This document shows, piece after piece, positions 1,382 to 22,051 of a DNA stretch of 22,051 bases. A program made the translations under genes and the position numbers. Numbering within the stretch: position 1 is the first letter of the stretch; the number at the start of each line of letters is the position of its first letter. The notes beneath the pieces are model-generated. The model saw nothing but the letters and a program-made list of their open reading frames with translations. It was not told the origin of the DNA and did no database searches. This stretch comes from a virus. Location of the stretch: positions 23,073-45,123 of the IMG/VR virus record IMGVR_UViG_3300030107_002180. The stretch is one strand, 5' to 3'.

Positions 1382-3432
1382 AGATAATACTTGATGTAGA
1401 AAACACGACAACCAAGAGGGATGGTAAGTTACACCTTGACCCATTCGAGCCTGACAATTCTTTGACACTCGTTGGTGTGCTTGATTGGTTGGAGTACGAT
1501 AGTGAGGTATTTGTGTTTGACCACAAAGAGAAGCGAATAACAGATGATGATAGTAAAGAGAGGTTACAAAGAGTTCTTGACAACACTACTTTACTTATAG
1601 GTCACAACTTACAGTACGACTTACAATGGCTGTGGGCATGTGGTTTTAAGTATGATGGTGAGATTTTTGATACAATGTTGGGGGATTACATACTCCAAAG
1701 AGGTCAGAAAGGGTCTGTGAGCCTAGAAAACTGTGCAATTCGCTATAATTTAGATATGAAAAAGTCTGATACACTTAAAGATTACTTTAGAAGAGGATTT
1801 AAGACGGATGAAATACCTCTTGATGAGCTATCAGAGTACCTTAAACAGGATTTATTAGTAACTAAGGGTCTTTATTGGCAACTTATGGAAGAATATGAGA
1901 AGCCTGAGTCTAAATCTCTTATTAATGTACGAGATATTACCAACAAAGTGTGCAAATCTCTTACTAAAATGTACATGAATGGCTTTAAAATAGACCGAAG
2001 TGCCCTACAAGAGGTGAGAGGAGACTTTGAAAAGGAGTTATTGACTATAGAGGATAGGTTACAGAAGCAGGTTAAGGAGCTTATGGGAGACACACCTATC
2101 AATCTTAACTCTCCTGAGCAAATAAGTCAGGTAATTTACTCAAGAATACTCTATGACAAGAAGAAATGGGCAGTTGCTTTTGATTTAGTGAACGACAAGG
2201 CTGAGTTTAAGAGTGCTGTCAAGGAGAATAGTGCTTTAATGGTCAAAACTAAGGCTAGTGTGTGTCATAAATGCTACGGAAAGGGCAGGGTATACAAGAC
2301 TAAGAAGGACGGAAACCCCTTTGCCAAGCCTAGTCGTTGTCCTGAGTGTGATACAAGAGGATATAAGCTGACAAAACTCAAAGAGATGGCAGGTTTAGGC
2401 TTTTTTCCACCTTCTAAGGAATGGGTTAGTGCTAATGGGTTCTCCACAAGCAAGGGAAACCTGGAGAATCTTATCAATATAGCCAAGAATAAGGGCATGA
2501 CTAAGGCTGAAACTTTCCTAACTGACCTAAAAAGGCAAAGTGCTGTGTCAAGCTACCTTTCAGCCTTTGTTGATGGCATAGAACATTACACTAAGGATGA
2601 TGGATTTCTCCATGTAACCCTAACTCAACATGTTACAGCGACAGGCAGGTTCAGTGGACGTAACCCTAATATGCAAAATATGCCTAGAGGGGGTACATTT
2701 CCTGTGAAGAAAGTGTTTGTGTCGAGGTGGGAGAATGGAAAGATACTTGAAGCTGACTTTGCACAGTTAGAATTTAGAGTTGCGGCACTTTTGTCGCAGG
2801 ATAAAGTTGCAATGGAAGAGGTGAGCACTGGATTTGATGTTCACTCCTACACGGCAGAAATCATCTCTGAGGCAGGTCAAAAGACTTCGAGACAAGAAGC
2901 TAAGGCACACACCTTTGCACCTCTCTACGGAGCTACAGGGTATGGTAGAACGAAAGCTGAGGCTGAATATTACACTCACTTTATGGACAAGTATCAAGGG
3001 GTAGCAAGATGGCACAAAAAACTAGGTAAAGAGGCTCTTAATCTTGGTAAAATAAAGATACCTTCAGGAAGACAGTATGCTTTCCCTGATGTGGAGAGAA
3101 GAAAGAGTGGTACTCCAACACACTTTACTATGATAAAGAATTATCCTGTTCAAGGCTTTGCTACAGGAGACATAGTTCCGATTGTGTTGTTGGAGATAGA
3201 GAAGAGGTTAGTAGCAGACGGATTAAATAGTTTATTAGTAAATACAGTACATGACTCTGTAGTGTTAGACGTACATCCTGCAGAGGAAAGGGCTGTGCTT
3301 GGCATAATTGAGGAGATTAACAAAGGCTTAAAACATATAATAGAACACTACTATGATGTGGATGTTAATGTTCCAATGTTATTAGAGGCAAAAATAGGTG
3401 ATAATTGGCTTGACGTTAGAGATGTCGCCTGA
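1378..3432 (+). CDS. polA: Family A DNA polymerase with 3'-5' exonuclease and DnaJ-like zinc-finger insert
   Basis: The protein has 684 residues. The N-terminal proofreading exonuclease shows the DEDD residues: D6 and E8 in LDVEN, D81 in GHNLQYDL, and Y154/D158 in YLKQD. The polymerase domain shows motif A at 459-467 (D460, DFAQLEFR), the O-helix R505-K509-F513-Y517, and motif C HDS at 625-627. The residue equivalent to E. coli Pol I Phe762 is Phe (F513). Motif C has Ser where Glu is usual (HDE). Between the two domains, residues 296-328 hold CHKCYGKG and CPECDTRG, a DnaJ-type zinc finger. I recall this insert from HMO-2011-type phages. There is no 5'-3' exonuclease domain, as is normal for phage enzymes. 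The start overlaps the helicase stop. Confidence 0.95.
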   Translation: MKIILDVENTTTKRDGKLHLDPFEPDNSLTLVGVLDWLEYDSEVFVFDHKEKRITDDDSKERLQRVLDNTTLLIGHNLQYDLQWLWACGFKYDGEIFDTMLGDYILQRGQKGSVSLENCAIRYNLDMKKSDTLKDYFRRGFKTDEIPLDELSEYLKQDLLVTKGLYWQLMEEYEKPESKSLINVRDITNKVCKSLTKMYMNGFKIDRSALQEVRGDFEKELLTIEDRLQKQVKELMGDTPINLNSPEQISQVIYSRILYDKKKWAVAFDLVNDKAEFKSAVKENSALMVKTKASVCHKCYGKGRVYKTKKDGNPFAKPSRCPECDTRGYKLTKLKEMAGLGFFPPSKEWVSANGFSTSKGNLENLINIAKNKGMTKAETFLTDLKRQSAVSSYLSAFVDGIEHYTKDDGFLHVTLTQHVTATGRFSGRNPNMQNMPRGGTFPVKKVFVSRWENGKILEADFAQLEFRVAALLSQDKVAMEEVSTGFDVHSYTAEIISEAGQKTSRQEAKAHTFAPLYGATGYGRTKAEAEYYTHFMDKYQGVARWHKKLGKEALNLGKIKIPSGRQYAFPDVERRKSGTPTHFTMIKNYPVQGFATGDIVPIVLLEIEKRLVADGLNSLLVNTVHDSVVLDVHPAEERAVLGIIEEINKGLKHIIEHYYDVDVNVPMLLEAKIGDNWLDVRDVA

Positions 3433-3438
3433 TATAAT
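3410..3438 (+). promoter_or_regulatory. Near-consensus sigma-70 promoter
   Basis: TTGACG (3410-3415) and TATAAT (3433-3438) are separated by exactly 17 bases. The -10 box is perfect and the -35 box matches five of six positions. The -35 box lies in the last codons of the polymerase gene, and the -10 box begins right after its TGA stop. The predicted start of transcription is near 3445, which leaves a leader of about 24 bases before the GTG at 3469. It would let host RNA polymerase transcribe the genes from 3469 through the reductase. Known: this spacing and these hexamers define strong bacterial promoters. Inferred: that the site is used. Confidence 0.7.
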
Positions 3439-3468
3439 TCGAAATCTAAACAATAGGAGTAAATAAAA

Positions 3469-4350
3469 GTGGATAATAGTTTAGCAGTTATAGGAAAATC
3501 CCCTGCAGATCTTGCAGAACTAATGGGGATGTCAAATCTACCTGCGAAAAGCACTTCAGCTTTAGCAGAGATTAAACAGGTTCATCAGAATGTGATGGGT
3601 ACAAAGACTGTCGGTGGCGAGGAAATGGAAGTTGCTATCGTCAAGGCAGGGGCTTACTCTGTCACTTTCCCTGATGATACCATTTATTACAGTGATAAAA
3701 TAACAATGCGTCCTTTCATGCAGAGGTTTCAGTTCCAACGCTATGATAAGAGCTACCAAAGACCTGATGGTGGTGAAGGACGGATGTTACGCACTGTGAT
3801 GGCAACGTCACTTAATGGCGACTTGAAGGACAACTATGGTGGGTTCAACTGTGGTAGACCTTCAGGGTACGTTAAGGACTTCAGTTCGTTGCCACAAGAG
3901 ACACAAGACTTGATGAGGGCAACCGATAGGTTCAAAATCATCTTTGGTCTGTGTACACTCGACAAGCCTAAGGATGCCAATGGTAAAGCTGTTGATGTTA
4001 AAGAGTTCCCTTTCCTTATGAGGATTAAAAATCGTGATAGCTTCAAAGCTATGACTGATATGTTTAGTCAAATTCAGAGGAAAAATCGGCTTCCTATTCA
4101 ACATCTTCTCCACCTGTCGTCAGAAGTAAAGAGTATTCCTAGTGGAGCAACTTATGCAGTTATTAAGCCTAAGTTGGGGGAAGTAGTAGAGATTACCACT
4201 GATGACCAAGAGGTGTTGAATAACTTTGTCGAGTGGGTTGAGTCTATGAACTCTATTACAATGAGCAAATGGGAAGAACATCGCAGACCTGAGGAGCTAT
4301 CCGATGATGAGTCTGAGATTGTTGCCAATGTTGTTGAAATAGACGAGTAG
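3469..4350 (+). CDS. Hypothetical replication-module protein, possible ssDNA-binding protein
   Basis: The protein has 293 residues and I cannot assign it to a family with confidence. It starts at GTG, chosen because AGGAG (3455-3459) lies nine bases upstream and no better start is nearby. The middle (about 55-240) alternates short charged and hydrophobic stretches that look like a compact, strand-rich fold. The last 20 residues are strongly acidic (ELSDDESE, then VVEIDE). An acidic C-terminal tail and a place between DNA polymerase and an exonuclease are features shared with T7 gp2.5-type single-stranded DNA-binding proteins, so that role is a reasonable guess. It is the first gene after the promoter at 3410-3438. 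It ends three bases before the start of the exonuclease gene. Confidence 0.75.
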   Translation: MDNSLAVIGKSPADLAELMGMSNLPAKSTSALAEIKQVHQNVMGTKTVGGEEMEVAIVKAGAYSVTFPDDTIYYSDKITMRPFMQRFQFQRYDKSYQRPDGGEGRMLRTVMATSLNGDLKDNYGGFNCGRPSGYVKDFSSLPQETQDLMRATDRFKIIFGLCTLDKPKDANGKAVDVKEFPFLMRIKNRDSFKAMTDMFSQIQRKNRLPIQHLLHLSSEVKSIPSGATYAVIKPKLGEVVEITTDDQEVLNNFVEWVESMNSITMSKWEEHRRPEELSDDESEIVANVVEIDE

Positions 4351-18460: not shown

Positions 18461-19528
18461 TTATAACTCTGCTAATAGTTGTATATGTCCATTTTGAGGT
18501 CGCAGACCATAGGCTAAATCATCAGTAAGACTACTAAAATTACCCATACTAAATTCTACTCCCTCATCTGTAGATGTAGATAGGGTAATATCACCAGAAG
18601 ATTGTGCATTATTACTTGTTCCAATATTATTAACAGTAACAGTTCCTGTTGTAGTAGCTGTAGGAGTAGCCCTCATTGGATGTATGGGAGTAAATCCAAC
18701 AATAGATGTTGTGCCGTGCGCTCTTACTAGAAGTGACTCAATCGTTTGAAAGTACCTTCTTGATTTACGGAGAGTTTCTTCATAAGGCTCATGCTCAAAC
18801 TCTGTTGCGTTCTGCCCTACTTCTAACTGAACACCTGTGATGAACCATGTGTTATCTGTGCTGTCTAACAGATTGACTGTTTGCCCTGCTGCGTAATTGG
18901 CATTAGAATATGTTGCAAAAGATGCACTCGCAGAACCAGAAGTATAACCTGTACCTGCTGCCAAGAACCATGACATCTCAAACCCTGTTCCATTGTCATC
19001 GTTTATTACACCACTTGTATCACCAGTAAAAGTAAGTGATTTTCTTTCCCATGTATCAGCAGAATTAATAGTGTAAGTTAACGTTGCTTGTTTACTTGAG
19101 TTATCGCTTTGAGCTATATTAACAGCGTATGTGCCTGTTTTATTAGACTTTACATAGAATGAAACTGTAAAATTTTTTGCACTACTTGTACCAAAAGCTA
19201 GGCTCTGTAAGTTTTGTGCTTCAACTTTATGTGCAAAAATTTCATTTTGGGTTGATGCAAGGCTTGTGTCTGCTGTGGTAACATCCACTTTTAGGCTATT
19301 AGAAAATCCATCAGGACTAGAGCTATCTTGCGTTATTGTTACTGCTCCATCATTTGAATGATGTCTGACAAACCTATCAAGCGTATATGTTCCATTAGCT
19401 ACATCAGCAAAACTCGTTCCTCTCTGTGCCACGTTCATAGCACCATTGATAATCAAGTTCCTATTTACTCCACCACCACCTGCATTGATGTTGCCTATAA
19501 GGTTTGCTAAATCTGCTGCTTTGCTCAT
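18461..19528 (-). CDS. Tail fibre / receptor-binding-like protein (355 aa)
   Basis: After a Gly-rich linker (NINAGGGG) comes NRNLIINGAMNVAQRGTSF, then YTLDRF at about 48-53. This start is very common in marine phage tail-fibre and adhesin proteins. The middle (about 60-235) is Ser/Thr/Asn-rich and strand-forming, with FTVSFYVKSNKTGTY, DTWERKSLTFTGDTSG and WFITGVQLEVGQNATEFEHEPYEETLRKSRRYF-like elements, typical of a carbohydrate-binding-module-like beta sandwich. The C-terminal 100 residues are again strand-rich and may form a tip domain. It probably binds host surface sugars or attaches to the fibre. Its ATG overlaps the stop of the previous GDLA-family gene (ATGA), and its ribosome-binding site lies inside that gene's conserved end. 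Confidence 0.85.
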   Translation of the reverse strand: MSKAADLANLIGNINAGGGGVNRNLIINGAMNVAQRGTSFADVANGTYTLDRFVRHHSNDGAVTITQDSSSPDGFSNSLKVDVTTADTSLASTQNEIFAHKVEAQNLQSLAFGTSSAKNFTVSFYVKSNKTGTYAVNIAQSDNSSKQATLTYTINSADTWERKSLTFTGDTSGVINDDNGTGFEMSWFLAAGTGYTSGSASASFATYSNANYAAGQTVNLLDSTDNTWFITGVQLEVGQNATEFEHEPYEETLRKSRRYFQTIESLLVRAHGTTSIVGFTPIHPMRATPTATTTGTVTVNNIGTSNNAQSSGDITLSTSTDEGVEFSMGNFSSLTDDLAYGLRPQNGHIQLLAEL

Positions 19529-19914
19529 GCTAAATCTCCTGCTACACTGTATGAAAGTGTGGTAGCATCTTCAGCACTACTACCTGCATAGTTAAATGTT
19601 CTAAAGGTACTTGCAGCATGACTGTCTATTCCAATAGTCTTTTCTGTTCCACTTCCTCCTGACACAACTGAAAAGTTAGCATTTGCCATATCATTAGCGA
19701 TTGTAACATTATAACTTCCTGTGCCATTGTCTACTAAACCACTTACATTAAAACTGTCACGTTCAGCAATAGTGCTTGTGCCATTAAAATTCACCCAAGC
19801 CTTAATTAACCCCTGTTGCAGATTAGTCGTGGTGCTATTCCCCTCGCCTGTCACAGCGATTGACCCTGCTGTACTTGCACCTGTTAGTGTATTTAATTTA
19901 AGTGTTGATGCCAT
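19525..19914 (-). CDS. GDLA-family tail-fibre-associated protein, paralogue 3 (129 aa)
   Basis: This is the last of three tandem related genes. It shares with them the N-terminal block AGSIAVTGEGN, then TTTNLQQGL.KAWVNFNGT, then DSFNVSGLVDNGTGSYNVTIAN, and the final SVAGDLA. The middle (about 80-115) differs completely and would be the variable part. Composition is Thr/Ser/Gly/Asn-rich with no cysteine, as in beta-structured fibre proteins. Similar KAWVNFNGT proteins occur, as I recall, in many marine phages near tail-fibre genes; the function is not known to me. It starts by a TAATG overlap and ends in an ATGA overlap with the fibre gene. Confidence 0.85.
   Translation of the reverse strand: MASTLKLNTLTGASTAGSIAVTGEGNSTTTNLQQGLIKAWVNFNGTSTIAERDSFNVSGLVDNGTGSYNVTIANDMANANFSVVSGGSGTEKTIGIDSHAASTFRTFNYAGSSAEDATTLSYSVAGDLA
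19536..19539 (-). promoter_or_regulatory. Ribosome-binding site inside the GDLA codons (fibre gene)
   Basis: GGAG, part of the codons for the conserved Gly-Asp of GDLA, lies seven bases before the ATG of the 355-residue fibre gene at 19528. The same peptide end therefore serves as a coding signal and a translation signal. Confidence 0.7.
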
Positions 19915-19934
19915 TATGCTAAATCTCCGTGTAC
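19909..19934. repeat. 26-bp exact direct repeat, copy A
   Basis: This copy is identical over 26 bases to 20421-20446, and the flanking bases differ on both sides. It spans the end of paralogue 2 (codons for V-H-G-D-L-A and the stop) and the start of paralogue 3. The two copies are 512 bases apart, almost exactly one gene. Confidence 0.9.
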
Positions 19935-20426
19935 AGTAAATGTAACTATAGAAACATCAGATAATGTACCACTAGAGTTGGAAACTAACAAATTAACTTG
20001 TGACGTAGATACAGATTCAAAAGACATTTGTGAGGCATTACCAATAGCACCTCCTGCATAGTCATCATTTCCCATATTATTTGCAAAAGTTAATATGTAG
20101 TTTCCTGTACCATTGTCCGTTAATCCACTTCTATTGAAAGTATCTTGAGTGCCTATAGTTCCTGTTCCGTTAAACTGTGTCCATGCTTTACATAGTCCTT
20201 GCTGTAAGTTAGTAGTGGTTGACCCACCTTCTCCTACCACACTTATAGATGCAGCAGATGTGTATCCTTTAACTGTATCAAGTTTAACATGACCACTGCT
20301 ATCTACTTCAGCTTTAACAGCATTAGCTATTTTAATTTTAACAGCATCATTAGTCGCAAGGTCAATGCCTGTGTCATTGTCTCCCCCTGCGTTGAATATT
20401 TCATCTACTTCTATTTTACTTGCCAT
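19914..20426 (-). CDS. GDLA-family tail-fibre-associated protein, paralogue 2 (170 aa)
   Basis: This middle paralogue has an extra N-terminal domain of about 50 residues (FNAGGDNDTGIDLATNDAVKIKIANA, then DSSGHVKL), a repeat-like element seen in phage fibre and adhesin proteins. The shared core follows: SISVVGEGGSTTTNLQQGL, KAWTQFNGTGTI, DTFNRSGLTDNGTGNYILTFAN and the final VHGDLA. One cysteine is present, in LQQGLCKAW. The region between about 125 and 160 is unlike the other two copies. Exact 26-base direct repeats lie at both ends of the gene, so the gene could be gained, lost or swapped as a unit by homologous recombination. It is translationally coupled to both neighbours by TAATG overlaps. 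Confidence 0.85.
   Translation of the reverse strand: MASKIEVDEIFNAGGDNDTGIDLATNDAVKIKIANAVKAEVDSSGHVKLDTVKGYTSAASISVVGEGGSTTTNLQQGLCKAWTQFNGTGTIGTQDTFNRSGLTDNGTGNYILTFANNMGNDDYAGGAIGNASQMSFESVSTSQVNLLVSNSSGTLSDVSIVTFTVHGDLA
19925..19928 (-). promoter_or_regulatory. Ribosome-binding site inside the GDLA codons (paralogue 3)
   Basis: GGAG in the GDLA codons of paralogue 2 lies ten bases before the ATG of paralogue 3 at 19914, within one copy of the 26-base direct repeat. Confidence 0.65.
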
Positions 20427-20446
20427 TATGCTAAATCTCCGTGTAC
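20421..20446. repeat. 26-bp exact direct repeat, copy B
   Basis: This is the second copy of the repeat at 19909-19934. It spans the end of paralogue 1 and the start of paralogue 2. Recombination between the copies would remove or duplicate paralogue 2 and leave all reading frames and ribosome-binding sites intact. Confidence 0.9.
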
Positions 20447-20815
20447 TGCTCCTGCATTTCGTCTATCTCTATCAGCACTTCCATCCCCATTGTTTATTAA
20501 TATTCTCATAGAACCTGTGCTAGTGTCATCAGTGCGAATATGTCCTGAATTGTCATCATGTATAGCATGAGGAGCAGAATAACCTCCTGCATTAGTCATA
20601 GAATTAGTAAATGAAAATTCAAAATCTCCTGTTGCGTGGTCTGTTGTACTCCCTATGTTAAAAGAGTCACTTAATATTTCCATATTGGAATGATGCCACG
20701 CTTTTGCTATTCCCTGTTGCAGATTAGTAGAAGCACCGTTGGACTCACCTGTAACAGTAATGCTACCCTTTGTTGTTCTTCCCTCTAAATTATCTACTTG
20801 TAATTTTGATGTCAT
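20426..20815 (-). CDS. GDLA-family tail-fibre-associated protein, paralogue 1 (129 aa)
   Basis: The ATG at 20815 is chosen over 20827 because it gives an ATGA overlap with the upstream gene and a start (MTSKLQVDNLEG) that lines up with MASTLKLNTLTG of paralogue 3. It is the most diverged copy: GSITVTGESNGASTNLQQGIAKAWHHSN replaces the KAWVNFNGT block, and DSFNIGSTTDHATGDFEFSFTN aligns with the NGTG block. It also ends in VHGDLA. The middle is His- and Asp-rich (SAPHAIHDDNSGHIRTDD), which may form a metal- or sugar-contacting surface. The role is probably that of a tail-fibre accessory or tip protein, inferred from its neighbours. Confidence 0.8.
   Translation of the reverse strand: MTSKLQVDNLEGRTTKGSITVTGESNGASTNLQQGIAKAWHHSNMEILSDSFNIGSTTDHATGDFEFSFTNSMTNAGGYSAPHAIHDDNSGHIRTDDTSTGSMRILINNGDGSADRDRRNAGAVHGDLA
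20437..20440 (-). promoter_or_regulatory. Ribosome-binding site inside the GDLA codons (paralogue 2)
   Basis: GGAG in the GDLA codons of paralogue 1 lies ten bases before the ATG of paralogue 2 at 20426, within the second copy of the 26-base direct repeat. Confidence 0.65.
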
Positions 20816-21276
20816 AATACTGTCCAATATCCACTAACTGTAACGGTGGCACTGCTTCCAATGGTTATAGGACCTGCACTCAGTCCGTTTGTAGAACTAC
20901 TGATTGTTATATCAGCACTGATTGTTTGTCCGTTTGTTCTTACGATAGAGTTATTACCCAAGAATGGATACCGTGTGTCTGCTTCTGACTTGGTGTAGCT
21001 GTTGGCTATACTAAAGGCATCATAGGCTATTATCTCTACAACATCATTGACAGATGCACCTGTAGTCAGAACGACTGTTGTACCTGATGTGGCTGTATAG
21101 TCTGTACTAGGCTTGAGTAGAATACCATTCTGATATACGTCTACATAAGCACCGTCTGCATATGTTAGCGTAAGTGCGTTAGAGTCAGAACCACTAAAGG
21201 TTGTCTGTCCTGCTGTCGCTTGGTACACGAACCTGTTTCGTATTCCTTGATTTGGTGCTTTTCCTATATAGGGCAT
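20812..21276 (-). CDS. Tail-fibre adaptor-like protein (154 aa)
   Basis: The first 90 residues follow a pattern I recall from many marine phage fibre and tail proteins: MPYIGKAPNQGIRNRFVYQ, then AGQTTFSGSD, then YADGAYVDVYQNGILLKPSTDY, then ASVNDVVEIIAYDAF. This looks like a small beta domain that repeats in longer fibres. A short linker, SYTKSEADTRYPFLG, resembles the YTKSEAD motif used at stalk-to-domain joints in many tail fibres. The C-terminal 40 residues are Ser/Thr/Ile-rich and strand-like (GQTISADITISSSTNGLS). It probably forms a base or adaptor for receptor-binding proteins. The start is four codons after a weak ribosome-binding region and directly follows the 88-residue gene's stop. 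Its stop overlaps paralogue 1 as ATGA. Confidence 0.85.
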   Translation of the reverse strand: MPYIGKAPNQGIRNRFVYQATAGQTTFSGSDSNALTLTYADGAYVDVYQNGILLKPSTDYTATSGTTVVLTTGASVNDVVEIIAYDAFSIANSYTKSEADTRYPFLGNNSIVRTNGQTISADITISSSTNGLSAGPITIGSSATVTVSGYWTVL

Positions 21277-21582: not shown

Positions 21583-22051
21583 TTAACAGGCTAGAAAGCC
21601 AGAAAAATGACTCTCGGTATGTATGTCCATAGTATTAGCACCTCCAATAATTGTTATTTCAGGGGTAGCAGTATCACTTGCGTCCATATCTGCTAAAACA
21701 TTTACGTGCATACTGTACATTCCATAATTTTGGTCGCCTAAATCTGGGTCAATTATACTCATATAGACTCTATTGGAGGTTGATATTCTAAGCTGGTAAT
21801 AATCTACGTCTATGTCTACATTATTCATTCTGACTTGAAGATTTAAAAAATATCTTCCACCAATAGGTGCTGTGAATACATTAGATGCAAAGTCTCCATT
21901 TTGGTCATAAATTTCTGTTCCAAAAACTATAGTTGTTGTAGTTCCAACCGCTATACTGCCTTGAGTTGAAGTAGGTCTTGCCAAAAAAGCAGGTTGTAGT
22001 GGCTTAGTGATGTGACCATTAGCATCAAAGACCATGTGTGATGTAGTACCA
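21583..22051 (-). CDS. C1q/TNF-like tail-fibre tip protein (5' end outside window)
   Basis: The frame stays open past the ATG at 22035 up to the window edge, reading GTTSH before MVFDANGHITKP. No ribosome-binding site precedes that ATG, so this is more likely the end of a longer fibre protein than a 150-residue gene. Residues 14-150 counted from that ATG have the C1q-like pattern: QPAFLARPTSTQGSIAVG, TTIVFGTEIYDQNGDF, FTAPIGGRYFLNLQVRM, and ending HFSGFLAC. C1q-like domains form trimeric beta-sandwich tips in many phage fibres and bind host surface molecules. It is the first gene of the leftward cluster seen here. A gap of 39 bases with no clear terminator separates it from the 88-residue gene. 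Confidence 0.8.
   Translation of the reverse strand, partial: GTTSHMVFDANGHITKPLQPAFLARPTSTQGSIAVGTTTTIVFGTEIYDQNGDFASNVFTAPIGGRYFLNLQVRMNNVDIDVDYYQLRISTSNRVYMSIIDPDLGDQNYGMYSMHVNVLADMDASDTATPEITIIGGANTMDIHTESHFSGFLAC

Follow-up and report, generated by a model that had tools for sequence, protein, structure and literature searches.

The window analyzed here comprises the last 22 kb (22,051 nucleotides) of a 45,123-base IMG/VR virus record and its gene content includes a family A DNA polymerase carrying a DnaJ-like cysteine insertion, together with a DnaB-like helicase and a ribonucleotide reductase of class II. The polymerase matched the Pfam profile DNA_pol_A (E = 6.7e-53) and also DnaJ_CXXCXGXG (E = 0.00059, under Pfam's own cut-off), and CXXCXGXG motifs have been reported for HMO-2011-type phages (PMC6918029). 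The IGK gene of the window was 69.5% identical to gp33 of HMO-2011; together with a CBM gene it flanks an array of three tail genes ending in the residues GDLA, and these syntenic flanks are as expected of HMO-2011-type phages. Only HMO-2011 carried this array among the cultured phages searched, and a Microcystis phage carries two GDLA genes. The phage was named HMO-2011-type because, among cultured phages, the IGK gene and a GDLA array were found together in HMO-2011 alone, and it is a marine virus of bacteria. Phages of this type are reported to be among the most abundant in the ocean, and tail-fiber variation between them is already known (PMC6918029).

Three tail genes, their junctions and their core

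The three genes, P3, P2, and P1 (Table 1), all matched the tail fiber protein family phrog_11355 at the profile level (E = 1.1e-10 to 7e-16). The start of P3 was taken as the ATG overlapping the upstream stop; the mechanical open reading frame begins at a TTG at position 20827. The shared core that an earlier note had described in the three genes is real, and the counts of GDLA endings given below indicate a likeness that is not due to chance. Two other observations of that note, exact 26-bp repeats 512 bp apart at the ends of the middle gene and an identical 17-bp block in genes 1 and 3, were found again as claimed.

Table 1. Features of the tail gene array and its borders (window positions)
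Feature	Position	Strand	Remark
IGK marker, conserved upstream tail gene bordering the three slots	20812..21276	-	
P3, slot-1 tail gene	20426..20815	-	Start overlaps the upstream tail gene's stop (ATGA)
17-bp core block in P3 (TNLQQG)	20712..20728	-	5′ edge of the putative exchange unit
Putative exchangeable C-terminal domain of P3	20426..20704	-	
26-bp junction P3/P2	20421..20446	-	VHGDLA codons, GGAG, TAATG, and second codon
P2, slot-2 tail gene	19914..20426	-	N-terminus longer, slot-specific
Core TTTNLQQG in P2	20196..20219	-	Diverged at the DNA level
Putative exchangeable C-terminal domain of P2	19914..20189	-	
26-bp junction P2/P1	19909..19934	-	Identical to the P3/P2 junction
P1, slot-3 tail gene	19525..19914	-	
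17-bp core block in P1	19811..19827	-	
Putative exchangeable C-terminal domain of P1	19525..19803	-	Predicted beta domain (residues 37-125)
Diverged junction P1/next gene	19520..19545	-	GGAGATTTAGCATGA; ATGA overlap
CBM marker, downstream tail-fiber gene bordering the three slots	18461..19528	-	

On the coding strand, the 26-bp repeat reads GTACAC-GGAG-ATTTAGCATAATGGCA and encodes VHGDLA, a GGAG ribosome-binding site, and the overlapping stop/start TAATG; its codons are GTACAC GGA GAT TTA GCA TAA, the stop overlaps the next ATG (TAATG), and GCA follows. A third, weaker copy (69%) lies where P1 meets the next gene, and the distance from GGAG to the start is 10 nt in the 26-bp junctions and 7 nt at the end of P1, where the overlap has the ATGA form. 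The 17-bp block reads ACTAATCTGCAACAGGG on the coding strand and encodes TNLQQG. The exactness of the 26-bp repeat can be resolved into a conserved junction of about 20 nt and 6 further nt, and these 6 nt upstream of the junction were identical at all six positions in 1.3% of cases within arrays vs 1.2% between arrays. Because the likeness within arrays is no greater than that between arrays, the last 6 bp look incidental, and recent gene conversion as a cause of the exactness is unsupported. The 12 GDLA nucleotides were identical more often within loci (36%) than between loci (20%). The repeats need not have arisen as recombination sites, because the combination of C-terminal codons, ribosome-binding site, and overlapping start provides an ordinary reason for their existence.

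The GDLA end as a putative translation signal

GDLA formed the gene end in 617 of 659 family genes, a set that includes loci fetched by the junction pattern so that counts including L240-L357 are biased, and in 335 of 359 genes of an earlier set without those loci. When the loci were restricted to those retrieved through protein similarity alone, GGA encoded the terminal Gly in 284/288 genes vs 1231/4082 (30%) of the Gly residues inside the same genes. Several exceptions to GGA still keep GGAG, and genes that have lost the Asp of GDLA often retain the purines, as in GSLA, encoded with GGGAGT. A stop/start overlap with the next gene, TAATG or ATGA, was present in 351 of 359 genes in the earlier tally, and all five GDLA genes of the isolate HMO-2011 overlap the gene that follows, which is a different one in each case. 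GGAG followed by a short spacer is used at many other sites of the phage, although the pattern also scores when read backwards (59 vs 33).

The C-terminal homologues found in other phages and genomes (n = 154) were scored as 139 without and 15 with an overlapping next gene. The former mostly have AIFR- or AVFR-like ends and usually carry a distinct start signal beyond the stop, whereas the ends of the latter are often GDLA, GSLA, GNLA, GGNS, and similar. A Shine-Dalgarno (SD)-like motif within the last 21 nt occurred in 12/15 overlapping vs 10/139 non-overlapping homologues (p = 1e-9, for distant loci that are mutually non-independent and were retrieved with a consensus-like probe composed for the search). 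The scoring missed an overlap, ATGA or TAATG, in at least two of the 139 genes: L526, which alone among them ends in GDLA, and L420. If anything, then, these figures underrate the contrast. GDLA was rejected as purely a protein motif, since homologues without a coupled next gene lack it. A pure RNA signal was not accepted either, because the Asp and Leu codons vary synonymously while the amino acids are unchanged; this indicates a protein-level constraint too, and ribosome binding alone does not explain GDLA. These patterns suggest that expression of the next gene would be coupled through the GDLA junction.

Unrelated short tail genes from the same region of other loci (L168, 5205-5726; L171, 3197-3715) also have the SD of the next gene inside their own last codons, reading GAGGAGATACAAGCATAATG in L171 and CAGGAGATAGCTCAATGA in L168, and the design therefore appears to extend beyond the GDLA family. 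In L198, a P1-type gene that has the usual TAATGGCATCAACACTTA start comes immediately after a gene (118-825) whose end resembles, by eye, a chaperone-like S74-type sequence.

Exchange of C-terminal domains between loci

We split the genes at the invariant Lys after TTTNLQQG and compared the domain DNA between loci of related marine phage contigs. This yielded 50 swap pairs with at least 75% domain DNA identity (75-98%) in which the N-terminal part and the following gene were both unrelated; all were between different loci and came from metagenome contigs, and they formed 34 connected groups covering 66 loci. Profiles of 10 bp between L109 and L257 stayed at 90-100% identity across the domain as far as its final few bases, with near-background values on either side. 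Within the 85-99% identity band, both flanks differed in 26/62 domain pairs vs 55/762 pairs among the remaining genes from these loci (Fisher p about 2e-12, with pairs not independent), and the control rate was higher in the 75-85% band (557/2151). The 5′ exchange edges fell 0-43 nt upstream of the invariant Lys codon, 25/26 of them within 33 nt, and the 3′ edges fell 0-8 nt past the stop.

Swaps were also seen in genes of the window. Between P2 and L001, the N-terminus and the next gene were mostly 80-100% identical and the domain was near background, which by this comparison is a clean domain replacement. The P3 domain recurs at 79% DNA identity in L396, where both the N-terminus ahead of it and the gene after it differ. 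In most of the near relatives examined, slot-3 N-terminal DNA was 88-99% identical and the domains 51-61%, random sequences scoring 43-51%. Judged from sequence comparison, the exchange unit is the C-terminal beta domain of about 90 residues, edged by the core and the junction, and not the whole gene. The related contigs thus support the earlier proposal of recombinational swapping with edges in the repeats, but they narrow the unit from an entire gene to the C-terminal domain, which the 17-bp core and the 26-bp junction delimit. As a separate observation, two genes of L027 with different N-termini (350-796 and 3313-3735) share a C-terminal domain that is 91% identical at the protein level, which suggests copying within an array.

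Gene number and alternative explanations

The array could instead be composed of whole-gene cassettes, with entire tail genes gained or lost by recombination between the 26-bp junctions. The spacing of the junctions equals one gene, intervals with 0, 1, or 5 genes were found, and in L171 non-GDLA tail genes take the same place. The gain and loss of whole genes that the earlier note had envisaged is uncommon, however: of the 81 contiguous IGK-to-CBM intervals, 57 hold three genes, or 67 if counted from the last IGK where there are two. The occupants were GDLA-GDLA-GDLA in 48 intervals, the others being mixed with C1q or unrelated genes. The N-termini are also mostly slot-specific, the first mostly MTS-type and the last mostly MAS-type, and the 5′ edges lie at the core rather than at the upstream junction. 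Gene number between the flanks thus appears largely fixed at three; whole-gene gain and loss was rejected as the main mode on this slot constancy, and we consider the cassette explanation unlikely. In L161, the array genes were 44-59% identical in amino acids vs 89-98% for the flanking genes.

Two explanations that dispense with exchange appear far less probable still. In the first, a long-established tandem family would have C-terminal halves that selection drives apart quickly and a core and junction under functional constraint. The background divergence of most domain pairs and the constraint on the junction would resemble this in most comparisons; divergence alone, however, cannot produce domain DNA that is 75-98% identical with both flanks unrelated, which makes this reading highly improbable. 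Short-read assemblies might also have joined different phages at the repeated junctions, an equally improbable source of the pattern: metagenome contigs are involved in every swap pair and the edges coincide with repeated sequence, but many shared domains differ by 5-25% where a chimera would give near 100%, and each event needs two independent edges. The same junction, moreover, stands before five different genes in HMO-2011, an isolate, and assembly words are usually longer than the 17-bp core.

Predicted structure and proposed mechanism

An AlphaFold2 model of P1 built from 115 sequences (pLDDT 81.6) contained an eight-strand beta domain at residues 37-125. Matches of this model in the PDB were weak, comprising the phiAB6 and Pam1 tailspikes at E = 0.13 and above (best phiAB6, E = 0.13, probability 0.99); the PDB structure search matched no solved structure with the P1 fold at E ≤ 0.001, and a sequence search found no homologous solved structure. 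Predicted viral structures matching the model included tail-fiber domains (1e-9 to 1e-4). A receptor-binding role of the domains is likely given the model, and a change of host range through domain exchange is plausible.

We consider it probable that the locus is a three-slot tail-tip array in which C-terminal domains are exchangeable between core and junction and the junction doubles as the ribosome-binding site of the next gene. The slot-characteristic N-terminus would anchor each protein in the virion, and the C-terminal beta domain would form the receptor-binding tip. The last four codons, GDLA, would double as the ribosome-binding site and continue into the overlapping next start. Sequence comparison shows recombination with edges at the core and junction replacing domains within and across slots, and the incoming domain would carry the ribosome-binding site of the next gene along. 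Because each incoming domain brings this site with it, downstream translation should stay intact after exchange. Among the predicted gene products of the phage are a T7-type endonuclease I (Pfam E = 1.7e-41) and a Cas4-domain exonuclease (PHROG E = 8.5e-33), and short-homology recombination with these two enzymes would be the likely route. Whether GDLA has been kept as a dual-coded 3′ boundary, an evolved plug-in system that makes tips exchangeable among slots and phages with operon translation undisturbed, is a more tentative matter, and we regard this reading as possible but somewhat doubtful.

Relation to known systems

Lambdoid phages have conserved boundary sequences between modules and, as in the array, a short conserved sequence at the exchange edges; in the array, by contrast, coding sequence on one side of the boundary meets a translation signal on the other, and the boundary is repeated in tandem. 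The tail-fiber cluster of the Puniceispirillum phage HMO-2011 (NC_021864) shares with the window the gene family, the GDLA stop/start junction, and the IGK and CBM flanks, but its five GDLA genes are interleaved with other tail genes, and between IGK and CBM it has a GDLA gene, a C1q gene, a gene for an 81-aa protein, and a further GDLA gene, where the window has three GDLA genes. No description of its junction and domain exchange was found in the literature searched. In the metaviromic islands of marine phages, host-recognition genes (tail fiber, C1q, carbohydrate-binding) vary and the rest is conserved (PMC3909814), much as in the array; those islands, however, are under-recruiting regions with no defined exchange unit bearing a ribosome-binding boundary, and the terms recombination and Shine-Dalgarno are absent from the text of that paper. 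C-terminal shuffling of tail fibers and tailspikes (e.g., PMC10408124) likewise combines a fixed N-terminal anchor with an exchanged receptor part, whereas the array differs in having three parallel short genes and a 3′ boundary that is the ribosome-binding site of the next gene. Literature searches on GDLA in phages and on translational coupling with tail fibers gave nothing relevant, and no account of the GDLA boundary design was found in a literature search short on most subscription journals.

An exchange unit with recognizable edges would allow recombination at host-recognition genes to be counted directly in metagenomes. The array also offers a testable example of a protein whose end contains a translation signal, and a conserved C-terminal motif that would otherwise be taken for a purely protein feature could be explained in this way.

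Variation was also visible beyond the three slots. The CBM-marker gene was only 51% identical in amino acids in L161, though the genes beyond it were 96-98% identical, and the variable region therefore reaches past the array. On the other side, a C1q-like tail protein (21583-22035 in the window) was 47% identical in L161, with the adjacent 88-aa gene at 97%, and by this comparison it is another variable host-recognition gene.
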